From Candidatus Nitrosotalea sp. TS (GTDB lineage: Archaea > Thermoproteota > Nitrososphaeria > Nitrososphaerales > Nitrosopumilaceae): 64,000 bases of DNA. The stretch spans positions 1 through 64,000 of the forward strand of contig NZ_RCMB01000007.1 of assembly GCF_011319465.1 (NCBI RefSeq), read 5' to 3'. Each line of letters starts with the position of its first letter. Within the stretch, counting starts at the first letter, position 1. Positions 8,030-55,273 of this stretch are shown one piece after another. The translations under genes were made by a program, and so were the position numbers. Under the pieces are notes generated by a model. That model was not told the DNA's origin. It worked only from the letters and a program-made list of their open reading frames with translations, and did not search any database.

Positions 8030-8054
8030 GTCAAAAACTGGAGGGTCTGTATGG

Positions 8055-9413
8055 GTGGCCACATTTGGGCATTCAAACCTTAAGATAGTACCCCTAGATT
8101 ATTCTGGCTCCCAATTTGATCTGTATAATAAAATTTCAAGAAAATTTCGATTATTCTTTCCTCTTTGAATCATTAACTGGACCAGAAGAACTTGCAGAAA
8201 CTTCAATCATGGGATTTGACCCTCCAATTGTAGCAAAGTGTTTTGCAGATAGAGTGATACTACATTACAAAAACGGCACGTCAACTGTGATTGAAACAAA
8301 AGATCCGTTATCTGAAATCAAAAAACTCCTCTATCAAGTTTCTGATCAGAAATACCGATACGTTGGAGGCGCAGTGGGTGCTATTCAATTATGATGCAAT
8401 ACGATTGTGGGAAAAAATTCCAAATTCGCATGACGAAAATAGCTCGCCCATAATGGAATTTGGAATATACAATGATGGAATTCTCTATGATAACAAACAA
8501 AAAAAGTCATTTTATTTCTATTATGATACAAATAGAATAAACAGCCTAGATTACGACAATACTGACTTTGATACATTTTCTTTATCTGAGATCAAAGAAA
8601 ATATGGATAAAGAGTATTTTGAGAAAATGGTAAAGAAAGCAAAACAGTACATACATGATGGTGACATTTTTCAAGTTGTACTTTCAAAAAAATTCAATTT
8701 CAATGCAAGTGGGGATCTTCTAAGAGTCTACAAATCACTCAGACAAATCAATCCTTCACCATATCTTTACCACATAAAGCTGGGCAATAGAACAATGATA
8801 GGTTCAAGTCCAGAGATGTTGTTACGTGTAACTGGAAACACCGTTGAAACATTTCCCATAGCTGGAACAAGACCTATTACAAATGATGAAAAGAAAAACG
8901 AATTCATGAAAGAGGAATTATTACATGGATGAAAAAGAATTGGCTGAACACACCATGTTAGTAGACCTAGGGCGTAATGATATTGGACGAGTTTGTAGGT
9001 ATGGTTCTGTGTATGTCAAAGAGTTGATGGCAGTGAAGAGATTCAGCCACGTACAGCACATCGTGACTCATGTAGTAGGCACGCTTGACAAAAAATACGA
9101 TGTGTTTGACGCTATCAAGGCAGTATTTCCAGCAGGAACCGTATCTGGCGCTCCCAAAATTCGCGCCATGGAAATAATAGATGAATTAGAACCAGATGCA
9201 AGAGGACCTTACGCTGGAGCAGTAGGATACTTTTCTTTTAATGGATGCTGTGATTTTGCAATTGCAATAAGAACAATTTTCATAGATGGAGAACAAGGAT
9301 TTGTGCAGACAGGAGCAGGGATTGTTTCAGATTCAGTGGCGGAAAACGAATGGATGGAAACTCAACACAAAGCAAATGCCATGATATCAGCATTGAAGGA
9401 GGCGACTAAATGA
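8055..9413 (+). CDS. trpE: Anthranilate synthase component I (frame-broken)
   Basis: Converts chorismate to anthranilate with TrpG, the first step of tryptophan synthesis. Chorismate-binding signatures: [51 protein letters not shown] and [11 protein letters not shown]. The N-terminus [12 protein letters not shown] joins to [20 protein letters not shown] after removing one T near 8144. Other breaks are near 8370 and 8920. I chose GTG at 8055, which gives [16 protein letters not shown] in frame and has ggaggg at 8040-8045. An ATG at 8051 is in another frame and stops after ten codons, but could be the true start if a further indel is present. The 3' end overlaps trpG by ATGA. Confidence 0.93.
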
Positions 9414-28552: not shown

Positions 28553-28581
28553 TATTTCATATGAAAAATCATAGGACTAAA

Positions 28582-28644
28582 ATGAAGTTAGGAGGCTCGG
28601 CAAGCATTTCTGGTATTCTGCTGCTAGTCGGCCTTATGCTGTAG
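28582..28644 (+). CDS. Possible 20-residue leader peptide rich in Leu, Ile and Val
   Basis: The first ATG after the predicted ilvB promoter opens a 20-codon ORF starting MKLGGSASIS and ending GILLLVGLML, with nine Leu/Ile/Val codons. It stops at TAG 28642-28644, inside a 17-base palindrome. ilvB follows 32 bases later with its own ggag at 28662-28665. It may be a leader peptide controlling the branched-chain operon, a tiny membrane peptide, or chance. Confidence 0.4.
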   Translation: MKLGGSASISGILLLVGLML

Positions 28645-28653
28645 ACTACAGCA
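28637..28653. promoter_or_regulatory. 17-base palindrome upstream of ilvB
   Basis: tgctgtag-a-ctacagca, perfect 8-base arms around one base. It lies between the predicted promoter and ilvB and contains the leader ORF stop codon. As DNA it suits a dimeric regulator such as an Lrp/AsnC protein; the one-base spacer makes an RNA hairpin of full length unlikely. Confidence 0.45.
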
Positions 28654-28676
28654 AGTTAGTCGGAGTTAGAAAAATT

Positions 28677-30367
28677 ATGGAAAAAATGTCAGGTGCTAGA
28701 TCTTTAATGGTTGCCCTCGAGAAAGAGGGTGCAAACATAGTCTTCGGACTACCCGGAGGAGCAAATCTTCCGATATATGATGAGCTCTACAAGAGCAACA
28801 TACGACACATCCTTGTTCGACACGAACAATCTGCATCACATATGGCAGATGGTTTTGGAAGAGTCAGTAGAAGGCCAGGAGTATGTTTTGCAACTTCAGG
28901 TCCCGGGGCAACAAATATTGTAACAGGGATTGCAACTGCCCAAGCAGATTCTTCCCCAATGATTGCAATTACTGGACAAGTTCCAACAAAAATGATTGGA
29001 CGGGATGCTTTTCAGGAAAGCGACATAATTGGAATTTCAAATCCAATAGTAAAATATGCATTTCAACCCATGACGGCGGCAGAAGTTCCCGAAGTAGTTA
29101 AAAAAGCATTTTACATTTCATCCACTGGCAGACCAGGTCCAGTACTAATCGACATTCCAAAAGATGTTCAACAAAACGAAGCAGAGATTACATTTCCGTC
29201 TGAAGTAAAGATAAGAGGATACCATCCATGGGTAGACCCTGACATTAGAGAAATTGAACGCGCCATAGACATGCTACTTGCTTCTGAAAAACCAGTAATC
29301 TTGGCAGGAGGCGGAGTGATAATTTCAGGAGCTTTTGCAGAACTTCAATCAATAGCAGAATTACTAATGATTCCAGTAGTAACAACATTCAAAGGAAAAG
29401 GCGCATTCCCAGAAAACCATCCGCTTTCACTAGGACCCATAGGAATGCATGGCCATGCAGAAGCCAACAAGATCATGGTAGAAGCTGATTGCGTACTTGC
29501 ATGCGGTTCTAGATTTTCAGATAGATCTGTTGGAACATTTGAAGAATTTGAAAAAAATCTCAAGATAATACACATGGATGTAGACCCGGCAGAGATAGGA
29601 AAGAACCAGACAACTCACATTGCAGTAGTTCGGAGACATAAAGGCCTCCCTTAGGATAATGGTAAAAATGCTAATCCAAAAAGCCATCAAACGTGCAGGA
29701 GACAACCCATGGCTAAAACGCGTTAATGAGACAAGAGAGTACTTTAGACAGAATCTAAAACTTCATTCACACCCATTAGGGGCTGCAAAGGTTTTAAGAA
29801 AATTAAGAGAGGTTCTCCCTCCGCAGTCAATTGTAACAACGGAAGTAGGCCAACACCAGATGTGGGCATCATTATTTTTTGATGTAATACAGCCTGGGAC
29901 ATTTCTTTAGCTCCACAGGTCTTGGCACCATGGGGTGGGGATTTCCAGCTGCAATTGGTGCAAAAGCTGCAAGACCAGACGTTCCAGTAGTTGACATTGC
30001 AGGAGAAGGAAGTTTTAACATGACTGAAAATTCACTTGCTGTCTCAGTTCTAGACGACTTGCCTGTGATAGTATTTTTGTTAAACAACTTTTCACTTGGA
30101 ATGGTTGCTCAATGGCAGAGAACATTTTATGACAGGCGCATGATTGGAATAGACCTTAAAAATTGCCCAGACTATGTCAAGCTAGCTGAATCTTACGGAG
30201 CTCAAGGCATCAGAGCCCAGAGCATAGACGAGATTGGAAAGGCAGTCCAGACAGCTCTTAAGAGCAACATAGCTACAGTCATAGACATTCCAATTGATCC
30301 CCAAGAGGACGTATTGCCATTTGTGGCTCCTGGAACATCTCTCAAAGATATGATTTTACCATCATAG
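28677..30367 (+). CDS. ilvB: Acetolactate synthase large subunit (frame-broken)
   Basis: ThDP enzyme for the first common step of valine and isoleucine synthesis. The catalytic glutamate for ThDP is in VRHEQSASHMADG; then SGPGATNIVTGIATA and ITGQVPTKMIGRDAFQE, and ILAGGGVIIS in the middle domain. In the C-terminal ThDP/Mg site the usual GDGS reads GEGSFNM, an Asp-to-Glu change, with LLNN downstream. Breaks near 29640 and 29908 (joining to STGLGTMGWGFPAAIG). The gene starts an operon ilvB-ilvN-leuA-leuB with tight spacing. Alternative start: ATG 28686. Confidence 0.94.
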
Positions 30368-30375
30368 TGATATCC

Positions 30376-30867
30376 ATGTGGTCCATAATTTCCGTACTTG
30401 TAGAAAATAAACCAGGAGTACTATTCAAAGTCACCAATCTCTTCAGATCAAGAAATTATAACATAGATAGCATATCTGTTGGCATAACAGAGAATCCAGA
30501 GTTTTCCAGAATGACCATCACAACATCAGCTGACGAAAAGCAACTCAATCAAATAATCAAGCAACTTGACAAGATGATAGATACCGTAGAGGTAAAACTA
30601 TTAGACGAGAAAAAGAGCATATACCGCGAACTAGTATTGATGAAGATAAAAATAACAAAACCGACAGATATCATGGAAATAACTGATCTTGCAAATGCTT
30701 TCAAATGCAATGTTCATGATGTGAGGAAATCATCAATTATCGTTGAGATTACAGCAACACCTGATAGAATCAACGCATTTGAAGATCTTGTGAAAGCATA
30801 TGGCATACTTGAGATAGCAAGAACCGGAATGTGTGCACTTGAGAGAGGAGTAGGCAATGAAAGTTAG
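30376..30867 (+). CDS. ilvN: Acetolactate synthase regulatory subunit
   Basis: ACT-domain subunit giving valine feedback to IlvB. The N-terminal ACT domain reads IISVLVENKPGVLFKVTNLF, then RNYNIDSISVGITEN and SRMTITT. The C-terminal half (LMKIKITKPTDIMEI through VVEITATPDRINAF-like segments) is the second alpha-beta domain of IlvN. 163 residues, complete. ATG 30376 lies nine bases after the ilvB stop; its own end overlaps the leuA start. Confidence 0.95.
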   Translation: MWSIISVLVENKPGVLFKVTNLFRSRNYNIDSISVGITENPEFSRMTITTSADEKQLNQIIKQLDKMIDTVEVKLLDEKKSIYRELVLMKIKITKPTDIMEITDLANAFKCNVHDVRKSSIIVEITATPDRINAFEDLVKAYGILEIARTGMCALERGVGNES

Positions 30868-32374
30868 GATTTTTGATACCACCTTAAGAGATGGAGAGCA
30901 GACACCGGGTATTGCATTAACCCCAGAGCAAAAACTTGCAATTGCTCAAAAGTTAGACGAATTGGGCGTGGATGCAATAGAAGCTGGATTTCCCATAATA
31001 TCAGACGGTGAAAAAAAGGCGGTAAAAGACATTGCTCACGCAAATCTCAAAGCAGAGATTTGTGGCTTGGCAAGAACTGAGAAAAAAGACATCGATGCAG
31101 CAGTAGCTGCAGGGTTAAAGTACATACACACATTCATTGCAACATCTGATATTCATTTAAAATACAAACTCAACCTCACACGAGAACAAGCAGTTGCAAA
31201 GGCGATCGAGGCAGTAGAATACGCAAAATCACTTGGATTGCAGGTAGAGTTTTCTGCCGAAGATGCAACAAGAACAGATAGAGAGTTTCTCAAAAAAGTT
31301 TTCAAATCAGTCACAGAAGCTGGCGCAGACAGGATAGACATACCTGACACTGTAGGTTATTCCACTCCCCAGTATATTGCAGAAATCACAAAAGATGCTA
31401 TCGATGCCACTCACTTGCCTGTTAGCGTTCACTGTCATAATGATTTCGGGTTAGCTGTAGCAAATGCAATCTCTGCAGTTCAAGCAGGAGCACAATGCGC
31501 ACATGTTACAATAAACGGCATAGGGGAGAGAGCAGGCAATGCATCACTTGAAGAATTTGTCATGGCGCTACAATGCTTACAATTTGACAAAAAATTCGAG
31601 ACAAACATCAATACCAAACTTCTTTACGAAACATCGCGATACGTTTCAAAAATTGTTGGAGTTCAGGTCCAACCAAACAAGGCAATTGTTGGAGAAAATG
31701 CGTTCGGACATGAATCTGGAATTCACACACATGGTGTATTGAACAATCCATTAACGTATGAGCCGATTAGCCCAGAACTTGTAGGCAGAACACGTTGGTT
31801 CCAAGTAGGAAAACACGCAGGAGCACATGGAATTGCCGCAATGCTAGAAGAATATGGGATTCAACCGTCAAGGGACCAGACCCGCGAGATTCTAGAAAGA
31901 GTCAAGAAATTAGGAGATTTGGGAAAACATGTCACTGATGTAGAACTACTCTCAATCTCAGGCGAAGTGATGCACCAAGAGGGTCTGAAAAGACTAGTCC
32001 ACATAACAGGATTTTCAGTATCAACAGGAATTGGCAATATGCCATACGCATTTGTCAAATTAAACATAGAAGGAAAGGACTTCATAGGAACTGACTATGG
32101 TGTGGGTCCAGTAGACGCATCAATTAACGCAATACAAAAGATTACTGGCGAGACTTCCAAAGTCAGAATAAAAGAATACAAATTGGATTCTATTTCCGGC
32201 GGATCAGAGGCATTGTGCGAAGTAACAATAAAGGTTGAAGACGCATACGGCAACCAGGCTTCTGCAAAATCCATCGGCGAAGATATCGTAATCACCAGCG
32301 TTCAAGCCATGATCGACGGCCTAAACAGGATAATGCTCAAAAAAATCCTCAAACAAAAAAACTTGGGACATTAG
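30857..32374 (+). CDS. leuA: 2-Isopropylmalate synthase family protein
   Basis: Condenses acetyl-CoA with 2-ketoisovalerate (Leu pathway). The N-terminal HMGL-like barrel begins VRIFDTTLRDGEQTPGIAL, metal ligands in SVHCHNDFGLAVANAI and INGIGERAGNASLEE, then GHESGIHTHGVL. The C-terminal third (FVKLNIEGKDFIGTDYGVGP, INAIQKITG, ALCEVTIKVED) is the regulatory LeuA dimer domain. 505 residues, intact. Citramalate synthase for isoleucine has the same build and cannot be excluded, but leuB directly behind supports LeuA. Confidence 0.92.
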   Translation: MKVRIFDTTLRDGEQTPGIALTPEQKLAIAQKLDELGVDAIEAGFPIISDGEKKAVKDIAHANLKAEICGLARTEKKDIDAAVAAGLKYIHTFIATSDIHLKYKLNLTREQAVAKAIEAVEYAKSLGLQVEFSAEDATRTDREFLKKVFKSVTEAGADRIDIPDTVGYSTPQYIAEITKDAIDATHLPVSVHCHNDFGLAVANAISAVQAGAQCAHVTINGIGERAGNASLEEFVMALQCLQFDKKFETNINTKLLYETSRYVSKIVGVQVQPNKAIVGENAFGHESGIHTHGVLNNPLTYEPISPELVGRTRWFQVGKHAGAHGIAAMLEEYGIQPSRDQTREILERVKKLGDLGKHVTDVELLSISGEVMHQEGLKRLVHITGFSVSTGIGNMPYAFVKLNIEGKDFIGTDYGVGPVDASINAIQKITGETSKVRIKEYKLDSISGGSEALCEVTIKVEDAYGNQASAKSIGEDIVITSVQAMIDGLNRIMLKKILKQKNLGH

Positions 32375-33390
32375 ATGTATAAAATATCACTCATAACTGG
32401 AGACGGCATAGGTCCAGAACTATCAGAATCTGTTACAGACATACTACATACAATAAATGACAAGATTGGAGTAAAATTAGAAATCAATATTGTTGAAGCC
32501 GGCGATGCCGCACTGAAAAAAACAGGCAAGGCACTTCCTGATTCAACTTTTGATACAATAAAAAAATCTGATGCGTGTCTTAAAGCCCCGGTAGGAGAAA
32601 GTGCTGCAGATGTGATTGTATTTCTACGAAGAGCGCTGGATCTTTATGCCAACATAAGACCAGCAAAATCATATCCCAATATGCCGTCTCTTAAAGAAAA
32701 CATAGACCTTGTCATAGTGAGAGAGAATACCGAAGACCTCTACACGGGAATGGAGTTTGATGTCGGCAGTTCTGCGGTCGCACTAAGAACCATATCAGAA
32801 TATGCATCAAAACGTATTGCAAAATATGCCTGCATTACAGCAGGTCAAAGAAACAAGCAGAGAAAAGTAACCTGCGTTCACAAATCAAATGTAATGAGAA
32901 AAACAGACGGTCTTTTTGCAAGATCATGTGCTCAGACAGCAAAGGATTTTCCAGATATCAAATTTGAGCAGATGTATGTTGACGCATGTGCCATGAATCT
33001 AATCAGACAACCAGAGTCTTTTGATGTCATAGTGACAACAAACTTGTTTGGAGATATCTTGTCTGATGAGGCAGCCCAAGTTGTAGGTGGACTGGAATGG
33101 CACCAGCGGCCAATATCGGAGACAATTTTGCCTTGTTTGAACCGGTCCATGGTGCAGCTTTTGACATTGCAGGAAAACAGGCTGCCAATCCATCTTCTTT
33201 CATCTTATCTACAAAGATGATGTTTGAGTGGTTGGGAATGAAAAACAATGACTCTGCATCTTTTGCAGTGGCAAAGAAGATAGAAGATGCAGTCTATGGA
33301 GTAGTAAACGAAGGCAACAAGACAAAAGACATTGGCGGAAACAAGACCACCAAAGAATTTACCCATCAGGTAATCTCAAAACTTATTTGA
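32375..33390 (+). CDS. leuB: 3-Isopropylmalate dehydrogenase / isocitrate dehydrogenase family (frame-broken)
   Basis: Beta-decarboxylating dehydrogenase. It opens [17 protein letters not shown], has [29 protein letters not shown], the catalytic Lys region [14 protein letters not shown], and [20 protein letters not shown] with the metal aspartates. After a break near 33095 it continues [19 protein letters not shown]. Joined length of about 338 residues fits IPMDH rather than longer isocitrate dehydrogenases, and the operon position agrees. Its last bases overlap the convergent zinc membrane protein gene. Confidence 0.9.
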
Positions 33391-53666: not shown

Positions 53667-54869
53667 TTAGAAATAATCTTTTATCGATTTTTGATTTCTT
53701 GCTTTATGCAATTTACTTCTTGCCAGCCATTCTTTCTTGTCTACGCTCATACCTTTGCATGCAAGATCTAGGCCTTGCTCAAAAGTGTATACCATGACTG
53801 GTTTTTGTTTTAGCGCCATTCTGACTCCTTCTCTTACTTGCCAGACACCCACCAGGAACTGCATATTCAGGCCTTATCTCTCGAAGTACCATGACTCCTG
53901 CCTGGACATTGGCTGCCAAAAGATATTCTGCAACTGCAAGACGTGATGCAAAATGGGCCCCCGCAGTCTCTGGATAATGGGAAAGTCCCTTCATGTCTTC
54001 AAAATCAGACCCAAATCCTATGTTTCCTTCCTGATCGTACCATGCCTCTTGCATCTCAAACATCCACCTACTTGGAAACAGAATTACTGCATACAAATTA
54101 CCGAGATGCTCATAGGTGAAAAGACGGCAGCTGTCAATCTCAGAAAAACTTGTTATTTGTTCAACCATGGATTTTGAAATCATGTCATCGGTTGCAGTTA
54201 TGCTCCATCTTGTAGGTACAAGTTTTCTATTTTTTCCAAACATTCCAATACTGAAACATTTTTGAATTTTGCTTACCTCAATACCACGATTGTAGAGTTC
54301 AAGCACTGCATCTTGTGCCAAAATGTCCTTGTCATAAAACAATTTCTGAATGTTCTTGTCTGAAGACGAATTTGAAAACTTGGCAGTCTTTATTTCACCA
54401 ACTGGACCAAAAGGCGCATTTTCTCCATCTACAAATAAAGTTGGACGGGTATTTTTTACAAATTCCACTTCAGAATCAGTTGACTGGGACGACATGGCAA
54501 GCTCTTGTAAACTTTCAATGTATCTTCCCTGAGGCTCTTTTATCTGAACTGCTTGGATTCCTCTTACCAGCGATAGCCTATAGTTTACGATATCCTCCAG
54601 ACTCTTTCCAAGCCAAGACTCTGGCAAGTCCATAACTAGCGTGTTGCCATGAACTGGGGGCACCATTGGCCCTACCAAGACCTTTGGATACCCGTAAGAG
54701 CCGACAAAAACTGAAGGCGGACTGGATCCTTCCACATAGTTTGAAGAAAAGAGATTGGCATATTTTGAAAGATATTCGTTCCAGTTAGACTCTATGGCTT
54801 TTCTTATGTCTGGAGGCAGTTCTGGGCAACTATTTTCTCAGAGTACTTTGTGATTAATATATCTGACAT
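53667..54869 (-). CDS. Nre-family DNA repair protein (frame-broken)
   Basis: Archaeal DNA repair protein. Start ATG 54867-54869 (MSDILITKYSEKIV), break near 54830, then ELPPDIRKAIESNWNEYLSK, PSVFVGSYGYPKVLVGPMVP and ATDDMISKSMVEQI. After a break near 53850: VWQVREGVRMALKQKPV. The C-terminus QKSIKDYF is a PCNA-binding box, as reported for NreA proteins. About 400 residues joined. The cysteine-rich N-terminal finger found in some members is not seen. Confidence 0.88.
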
Positions 54870-54916
54870 GATCACTTTTGAATTATATTCAACCGTCCTA
54901 CAATTAGGATCAAAAA

Positions 54917-55273
54917 TTGGCAGATGCAGAATCTTTTGGAATTGAAAAAGGCTACGGTAAGCAGGCTGTAGACTGGATGAACGAAGAGGCAAAGAAGTTA
55001 GATTTGAAATTCGAGGCAAGGCTGTACGATTATGAGATATCAACCAAAAATTTTGGCAATTTTGAGATGTTTTCATGGATTGGCGGTTCCAAGATTGCAC
55101 GTGACTTGGTCATCAAAGCAAGCAAACGATTTAGAATAAAGGTCATAGAAGGCGGATACACTCCAATACGGTTGGTCATCAAGGTGTCATCACGCAATGA
55201 ATACGGAATTGTTCGAAAGGGAGATCGCGTGTATAGGACAGATCGAGTTTACATCTTCGCGATTAACAAATAG
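54917..55273 (+). CDS. Conserved-looking protein of unknown function
   Basis: 118 residues starting ADAESFGIEKGYGKQAVDWM. A middle part KFEARLYDYEISTKNFGNFE and the C-terminal RLVIKVSSRNEYGIVRKGDR suggest a small alpha-beta domain with a basic surface. Divergent from nreA (47-base gap). The start at 54917 may be TTG; no named domain recognised. Confidence 0.65.
   Translation: MADAESFGIEKGYGKQAVDWMNEEAKKLDLKFEARLYDYEISTKNFGNFEMFSWIGGSKIARDLVIKASKRFRIKVIEGGYTPIRLVIKVSSRNEYGIVRKGDRVYRTDRVYIFAINK

Follow-up and report, generated by a model that had tools for sequence, protein, structure and literature searches.

We propose that a short upstream open reading frame (uORF) directly ahead of the ilvB-ilvN-leuA-leuB operon of Candidatus Nitrosotalea sp. 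TS is probably a leader-peptide attenuator, one that would sense charged tRNA-Leu and tRNA-Val. Its translation, the stalling of ribosomes on it and the induction of the operon upon starvation are what we would expect from the sequence evidence set out below. Leader-peptide control of amino-acid operons is a textbook mechanism in bacteria, and the original prediction for this DNA had been of just such a branched-chain amino acid leader peptide. That prediction is supported by a uORF that has been kept among relatives, by its Leu/Val-rich end, by its distance from a TATA box and by accompanying hairpins, at the level of genus and family and across most of the class.

The window, by which we mean the whole 64,000-nucleotide stretch of DNA that was analyzed, contains the features listed in Table 1. 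Direct reading of positions 28582-28644 showed the predicted description to be exact: after a predicted promoter comes a 20-codon ORF with nine Leu, Ile or Val residues (L3, I9, I12, L13, L14, L15, V16, L18 and L20). The candidate regulatory codons are those of the Leu/Val run, codons 13-20. The uORF ATG lies 38 nt downstream of the first base of the TATA box, from which transcription is predicted to start at about 28570-28576, making the uORF almost leaderless. From the uORF stop to the ilvB ATG (28677) the distance is 32 nt, and relatives carry GGAG or GGTGA at the position equivalent to the Shine-Dalgarno-like GGAG of the window. At uORF codon 17 (28630-28632) the window has Gly (GGC), whereas all other uORFs of the genus have Asp or Glu; the difference could stem from a sequencing error or be private to this genome.

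Table 1. Features of the ilvB leader and operon in the window.
Feature	Position	Strand	Details
TATA box, TTTATAAA	28544-28551	+	Read directly
Leader-peptide ORF (uORF), MKLGGSASISGILLLVGLML then stop	28582-28644	+	20 sense codons; ATG at 28582, TAG at 28642-28644
Hairpin 1, inside the uORF	28592-28635	+	Arms 28592-28606 and 28622-28635; predicted fold
Hairpin 2, TGCTGTA...TACAGCA	28637-28653	+	Overlaps the uORF stop codon in the genus; predicted fold
Shine-Dalgarno-like GGAG of ilvB	28662-28665	+	Read directly
ilvB, acetolactate synthase large subunit	28677-30367	+	Three frames here: 28677-29654, 29659-29910, 29930-30367
ilvN, acetolactate synthase small subunit	30367-30867	+	TIGR00119 and NF008864, over cut-off
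leuA-like, 2-isopropylmalate synthase	30857-32374	+	NF002085 and TIGR02090, over cut-off
leuB-like, archaeal LEU3-type dehydrogenase	32375-33390	+	TIGR02088; two frames: 32375-33220, 33097-33390

The operon downstream had been read as ilvB-ilvN-leuA-leuB, which makes these same amino acids, and the NCBIfam assignments agree; the second piece of the leuB-like gene was assigned by its position, the NCBIfam scan having covered the first piece. In relatives, ilvB is a single open frame of about 560-595 codons. The assembly that contains the window (1.54 Mb in 24 contigs) splits ilvB, trpE (about 8055-9371) and leuB between frames where relatives have a single one, and ilvC is also frame-split (G000 contig 4, near 54690-55183). 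These splits are likely small assembly indels, and single-base differences in this assembly therefore need to be treated with caution.

When the upstream region was aligned across relatives, the check proposed with the original prediction, both the short ORF and its codon bias proved to be kept. With the transcription start predicted from the TATA box lying ahead of the ORF, neither of the refuting outcomes named with that prediction was seen, as far as sequence can tell. Of 37 genomes of the genus, 36 gave a match to the leader region. We then collected 80 ilvB loci from named Nitrosopumilaceae (Nitrosotalea, Nitrosopumilus, Nitrosopelagicus, Nitrosotenuis, Nitrosarchaeum and others), and a uORF of 16-20 codons was seen in the same place in 79 of the 80 leaders with enough upstream sequence, that of the window included; the exceptions among the family leaders are L085, which lacks an ATG-started version, and L096, which is cut off. 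In 75 of 77 family leaders, 33-40 nt separate the best TATA-like box from the uORF ATG, a distance that would put the beginning of the uORF no more than about a dozen bases from the mRNA 5' end. The 79 leaders encode 65 distinct uORF peptides, in which the last eight residues are 78% Leu, Val or Ile, versus 26% in the rest of the peptide. This tail, 520 residues in all, comprises 295 Leu, 108 Val and only 7 Ile, in contrast to IlvB itself, where Ile is the commonest of the three. Leu and Val thus stand as the putative sensed residues of the original prediction, but Ile, so rare in the tail, hardly does.

A single ORF of this kind is unimpressive. Among random ATG-started ORFs of 15-30 codons in the same sequences (n=3,174), 3.7% have at least five Leu, Ile or Val in the last eight residues, and 0.7% (21 ORFs) have at least six, as the window uORF does; on its own, the latter is only moderately unusual. 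At least five Leu or Val in the last eight residues, however, are found in 64 of the 65 distinct uORF peptides versus 1.6% of random ORFs, and the conservation of the uORF across relatives is far beyond chance.

The codons of the tail point to the amino acid rather than to base composition. At T-T-N codons a purine (Leu) is found 58 times and a pyrimidine (Phe) 6 times, compared with 212 purines and 98 pyrimidines at C/G-T-N codons; the contrast has a Fisher p of 2e-4 on distinct blocks, a value made optimistic by the relatedness of the sequences. Because of this purine excess at T-T-N codons, Leu appears to have been selected itself, and not U-richness. Against the reading, the pN/pS ratio in the uORF frame is only 0.65 and does not differ significantly from column shuffles, 26 of 200 of which are as low; perhaps the reason is that RNA structure also constrains the uORF sequence. 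The genome of a close relative, Nitrosotalea devanaterra (G002), has tRNA-Leu genes with CAG, TAG and GAG anticodons, which we count in favor of the leader-peptide reading. A rare-codon argument was considered and rejected: CTG makes up 43% of the tail Leu codons versus 3% in ilvB, and once the last two codons, which lie in hairpin 2, are left out, it makes up 22% versus 11% of Leu codons in the window genes, a weak point at most.

The leader is also structured. In hairpin 1, the 3' arm is made of the Leu/Val codons themselves, and across the family the pairing of its two arms is stronger than in dinucleotide shuffles (z -12.2). Exchanging the partners between species also weakens the pairing (z -3.8 and -5.5), although swapped-partner tests retain some effect of shared ancestry and of base composition, the latter being removed by composition-matched tests. 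Nitrosopumilus and its allies have a different pairing, between the beginning of the ORF and the bases that directly follow its stop, again with matched changes (GAGCACA/TGTGCTC, GAGCAAA/TTTGCTC and GACCACA/TGTGGTC; z -4.5). Within the genus the leader is too conserved for column-wise covariation. An Rfam scan gave no match to an ilv or leu family over the gathering score, and its two weak matches (isrA and snoR83) are unrelated and far below the cut-offs. Some 24 nt upstream of the aligned ilvB start, the sequence AACACATTAAAATTATGG hardly varies among Nitrosopumilus and its allies (L075-L111). The ATG within it opens the ilvB frame in most species and leads to a stop in some, and the element may be an alternative start, a second promoter or something else.

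Within the set of genes tested, the device is specific to the ilvB operon rather than shared by branched-chain amino acid genes generally. We scanned for the best ATG-started ORF ending 5-100 nt upstream of each gene with at least five Leu or Val in its last ten residues. This ORF was found in 76 of 78 ilvB leaders and in none of the 70 ilvC, ilvD and hisG leaders (26 genomes) that served as a negative control. An apparent trpE leader peptide with a conserved Trp codon was discarded as an artefact, an out-of-frame view of the TrpE N-terminus: the GTG at which TrpE begins lies 4 nt downstream (GTG GAC ACC TTT GGA), and the 'Trp' comes from its conserved Phe-Gly codons. The out-of-frame ATG, 4 nt before the presumed trpE GTG (ATGGGTGG, about 8051-8083 in the window; loci L142-L168), is nevertheless kept in nearly all Nitrosopumilaceae, which is odd though the short overlapping ORF looks artefactual. 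The ilvB uORF is not an artefact of this sort, since in the window it ends before ilvB begins, since its spacing to ilvB in the genus (26-32 nt) varies irrespective of the ilvB frame, and since other families keep it although their nucleotide sequence there is unrelated.

To follow the leader beyond its own family, we located IlvB across the class and read 60 leaders from 18 further families (families other than that of the window are labeled by number, f2 to f61); the ilvB start could be placed in 55 of them. A Leu/Val-rich uORF is present in 36 of these 55 leaders, 34 of them by automatic table and two (L266 and L268) by eye. All but one of the 18 families are represented (f2, f3, f4, f5, f6, f9, f10, f11, f12, f13, f14, f15, f16, f17, f18, f19 and f21), f11 and f19 by weak or single cases. 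The uORFs are 18-40 codons long and much diverged, with a Leu/Val-rich end, as in MPNTGSERSRHKVKILVLLVLA (f12), MLSTYSETTSLPVGLLLLVVLLD (f14), MKVMSGCQPNIHLGLTVVVGLAPLVLVVV (f15), MRGGAETGRRLSVQVVLLVLNVLPLVVLL (f6) and MSERVSASSSSVALIVLLIVV (f17), each followed by its stop. It is thus the composition, and not the peptide sequence, that is conserved, as expected for tRNA sensing. Most of these leaders have a stable hairpin immediately behind the stop (z -15 over 32 leaders), the sequence of which is unrelated between families: GGACCCC..GGGGTCC in f17, GGACTCACA..TGTGAGTCC in f9 and CCCACAG..CTGTGGG in f15.

The uORF is weak or absent in some f12 genera (weak in g45, none in g49-g52), in most of f19 and in parts of f11 and f15. 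It seems to have been lost or eroded in L113, L114, L115, L124, L128-L131 and L133 of f12, and in L289 and L293-L295 of f19; the uORF-less lineages of these two families are possible natural controls for a regulatory role. Of 39 leaders read from other classes of the phylum, four in three families (L296 and L297 of f35, L299 of f55 and L311 of f61) have the full pattern, with Leu/Val/Ile-rich uORFs and strong post-stop hairpins, such as AAGCGCCTTAAG..CTTAAGGCGCTT in f35. A few other leaders from outside the class pass the Leu/Val threshold with no hairpin, and these look like chance.

We suggest that the leader could work as follows. The ilvB-ilvN-leuA-leuB mRNA would start just before a conserved ORF of 16-40 codons ending in Leu/Val codons, and ribosomes would load almost at the mRNA 5' end and read the Leu/Val run. 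Were Leu-tRNA or Val-tRNA scarce, ribosomes would slow or stop within that run, and their position would decide whether the in-ORF hairpin, where there is one, and the hairpin at or after the stop form while RNA polymerase is near. The outcome would in turn set the amount of ilvB operon mRNA or enzyme. The output is the least certain step. We would prefer one in which ribosome position governs a coupling-dependent early termination of the aCPSF1/FttA type, because neither a U-tract terminator nor a trp-type alternative pairing is conserved, and we see no conserved pairing that would hide the ilvB start region. The idea that on archaeal RNA polymerase a coupled ribosome and the termination factor aCPSF1/FttA exclude each other comes from the literature (PMC8116511, PMC12548453).

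Runs of at least five Ts between the uORF and ilvB were seen in only 5 of 41 and 11 of 38 leaders, and there is none in the window. The one clear hairpin followed by six Ts (GCGGCC..GGCCGCTTTTTT) is that of L288 (f16), where it precedes the ilvB Shine-Dalgarno motif; a terminator-type output is possible there. A trp-type 2:3 pairing seemed positive with partners swapped between genomes (z -3.1), but was dropped after composition-matched shuffles gave a z of -1.1; for 2:4 pairing z was -1.7.

The output might also be translational, through termination-reinitiation or opening of the ilvB start, in a device that still senses Leu/Val-tRNA. This is a variant of our best explanation, so that confidence in the two overlaps, and we regard it as possible but doubtful. 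The uORF of the genus does stop within a short distance of ilvB (26-32 nt), Shine-Dalgarno-like motifs follow the hairpin, and no U-tract would be necessary. However, nearly all leaders have 26-77 nt between the uORF and ilvB (two have 13 nt), and reinitiation is disfavored by such spacings since coupling in Haloferax fades beyond 30 nt (PMC12548453). Moreover, pairing between the Leu/Val tract at the uORF tail and the ilvB start region is not above shuffles (z -1.1 in other families, +1.9 in the window's own), and masking by a ribosome on the Leu/Val run or at the stop produced no consistent change in access to the ilvB start region in predicted folds.

The hairpins could suggest a structured RNA element, be it a riboswitch, a protein-binding hairpin or a stability element, in which the ORF is incidental. 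Hairpin conservation (z -15 across families for hairpin 2, z -12 in the family for hairpin 1) speaks for it, as does the constraint seen at synonymous sites as well. We nevertheless consider it improbable: the ORF, with its stop and Leu/Val tail, is retained from family to family although the hairpin sequences are wholly different, Leu is preferred over Phe at T-T-N codons, and we saw neither an Rfam match nor a shared ligand-binding loop or sequence motif among the leaders. An arrest peptide of the TnaC type, sensing the free amino acid through nascent-chain contacts and not charged tRNA, is very unlikely. In its favor, nearly all uORFs of the family place a Leu codon right before the stop, but TnaC-type peptides conserve key residues, whereas between families these uORFs conserve only Leu/Val content and end variously in L, A, S, V, D, Q or G. 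Small membrane peptides are common, and the tail is hydrophobic, the caveat raised with the original prediction; that the uORF makes such a peptide, acting as a protein, is scarcely credible, as Ile, Phe and Ala, all common in membrane segments, nearly vanish from the tail though Ile tops Leu and Val in IlvB, the hydrophobic stretch of only 8-10 residues is too short to span a membrane, the sequence is not conserved across families, and of the genes tested, ilvB alone is preceded by the uORF.

The attenuator that we propose resembles several bacterial systems and matches none of them entirely. The enterobacterial trp, his, leu and ilv attenuators have cognate codons in a 5' mini-ORF, with one hairpin within the ORF and one after it. 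The archaeal leaders are alike in having a mini-ORF with cognate codons ahead of the operon and hairpins in and after it, and thus a short ORF near the predicted mRNA 5' end with a run of end-product codons. Unlike the enterobacterial attenuators, they have neither a conserved 2:3 antiterminator pairing nor a hairpin-plus-U terminator. As the terminator and antiterminator are two defining features, we do not class them as classical attenuators.

The closest known system is the Corynebacterium ilvB-II motif, the ilvBNC leader uORF, for which the reported model is ribosome-mediated attenuation (PMC10272879; attenuator, PMC11857589). In both, ilvB is immediately preceded by a short uORF with many branched-chain codons, and the leader has hairpins. 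The Corynebacterium system is bacterial and its reported mode is transcription attenuation, whereas the archaeal leaders mostly lack a U-tract terminator and have an archaeal TATA promoter, an almost leaderless uORF and a Leu/Val tail with little Ile. The bacterial ilvB-OMG motif (described in PMC10272879) is likewise a structured RNA with a uORF rich in branched-chain codons before ilvB, although the Rfam scan here gave no ilv or leu match. Leader peptides without recognizable terminators are known from Actinobacteria, in cys operons and in the leuA LEU element (PMC1262725), and like the archaeal uORF they are small ORFs in which runs of cognate codons lie close to the stop. In the LEU element the Leu codons pair with the Shine-Dalgarno box, a pairing that is not conserved in the archaeal leaders; nor do these have the conserved start-hiding pairing of translational attenuators (ermC type, LEU element) generally.

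We would therefore entertain, tentatively, an ancient class-wide attenuator that dispenses with terminator hairpin and antiterminator, in which the position of the ribosome on a near-leaderless Leu/Val uORF would control its coupling to RNA polymerase, and through this the early termination of the ilvB operon by aCPSF1/FttA, and which may already have existed in the ancestor of the class, that of the ammonia oxidizers and their relatives. Given the clear cases in three outside families, it is perhaps older still.

The original prediction held that, as far as its author knew, nothing comparable is established in Thaumarchaeota. In the open-access literature searched, we came across no previous account of archaea using a leader peptide for an amino acid. 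To our knowledge, amino-acid sensing by way of a ribosome on a leader peptide has so far been established only in bacteria. Judging from these leaders, the archaea studied here probably sense their amino-acid supply through the ribosome. If confirmed, this would place the mechanism in a second domain of life, with a different promoter, RNA polymerase and termination machinery, and in some of the most abundant microbes of ocean and soil. It would also provide a natural and testable read-out of transcription-translation coupling in archaea.
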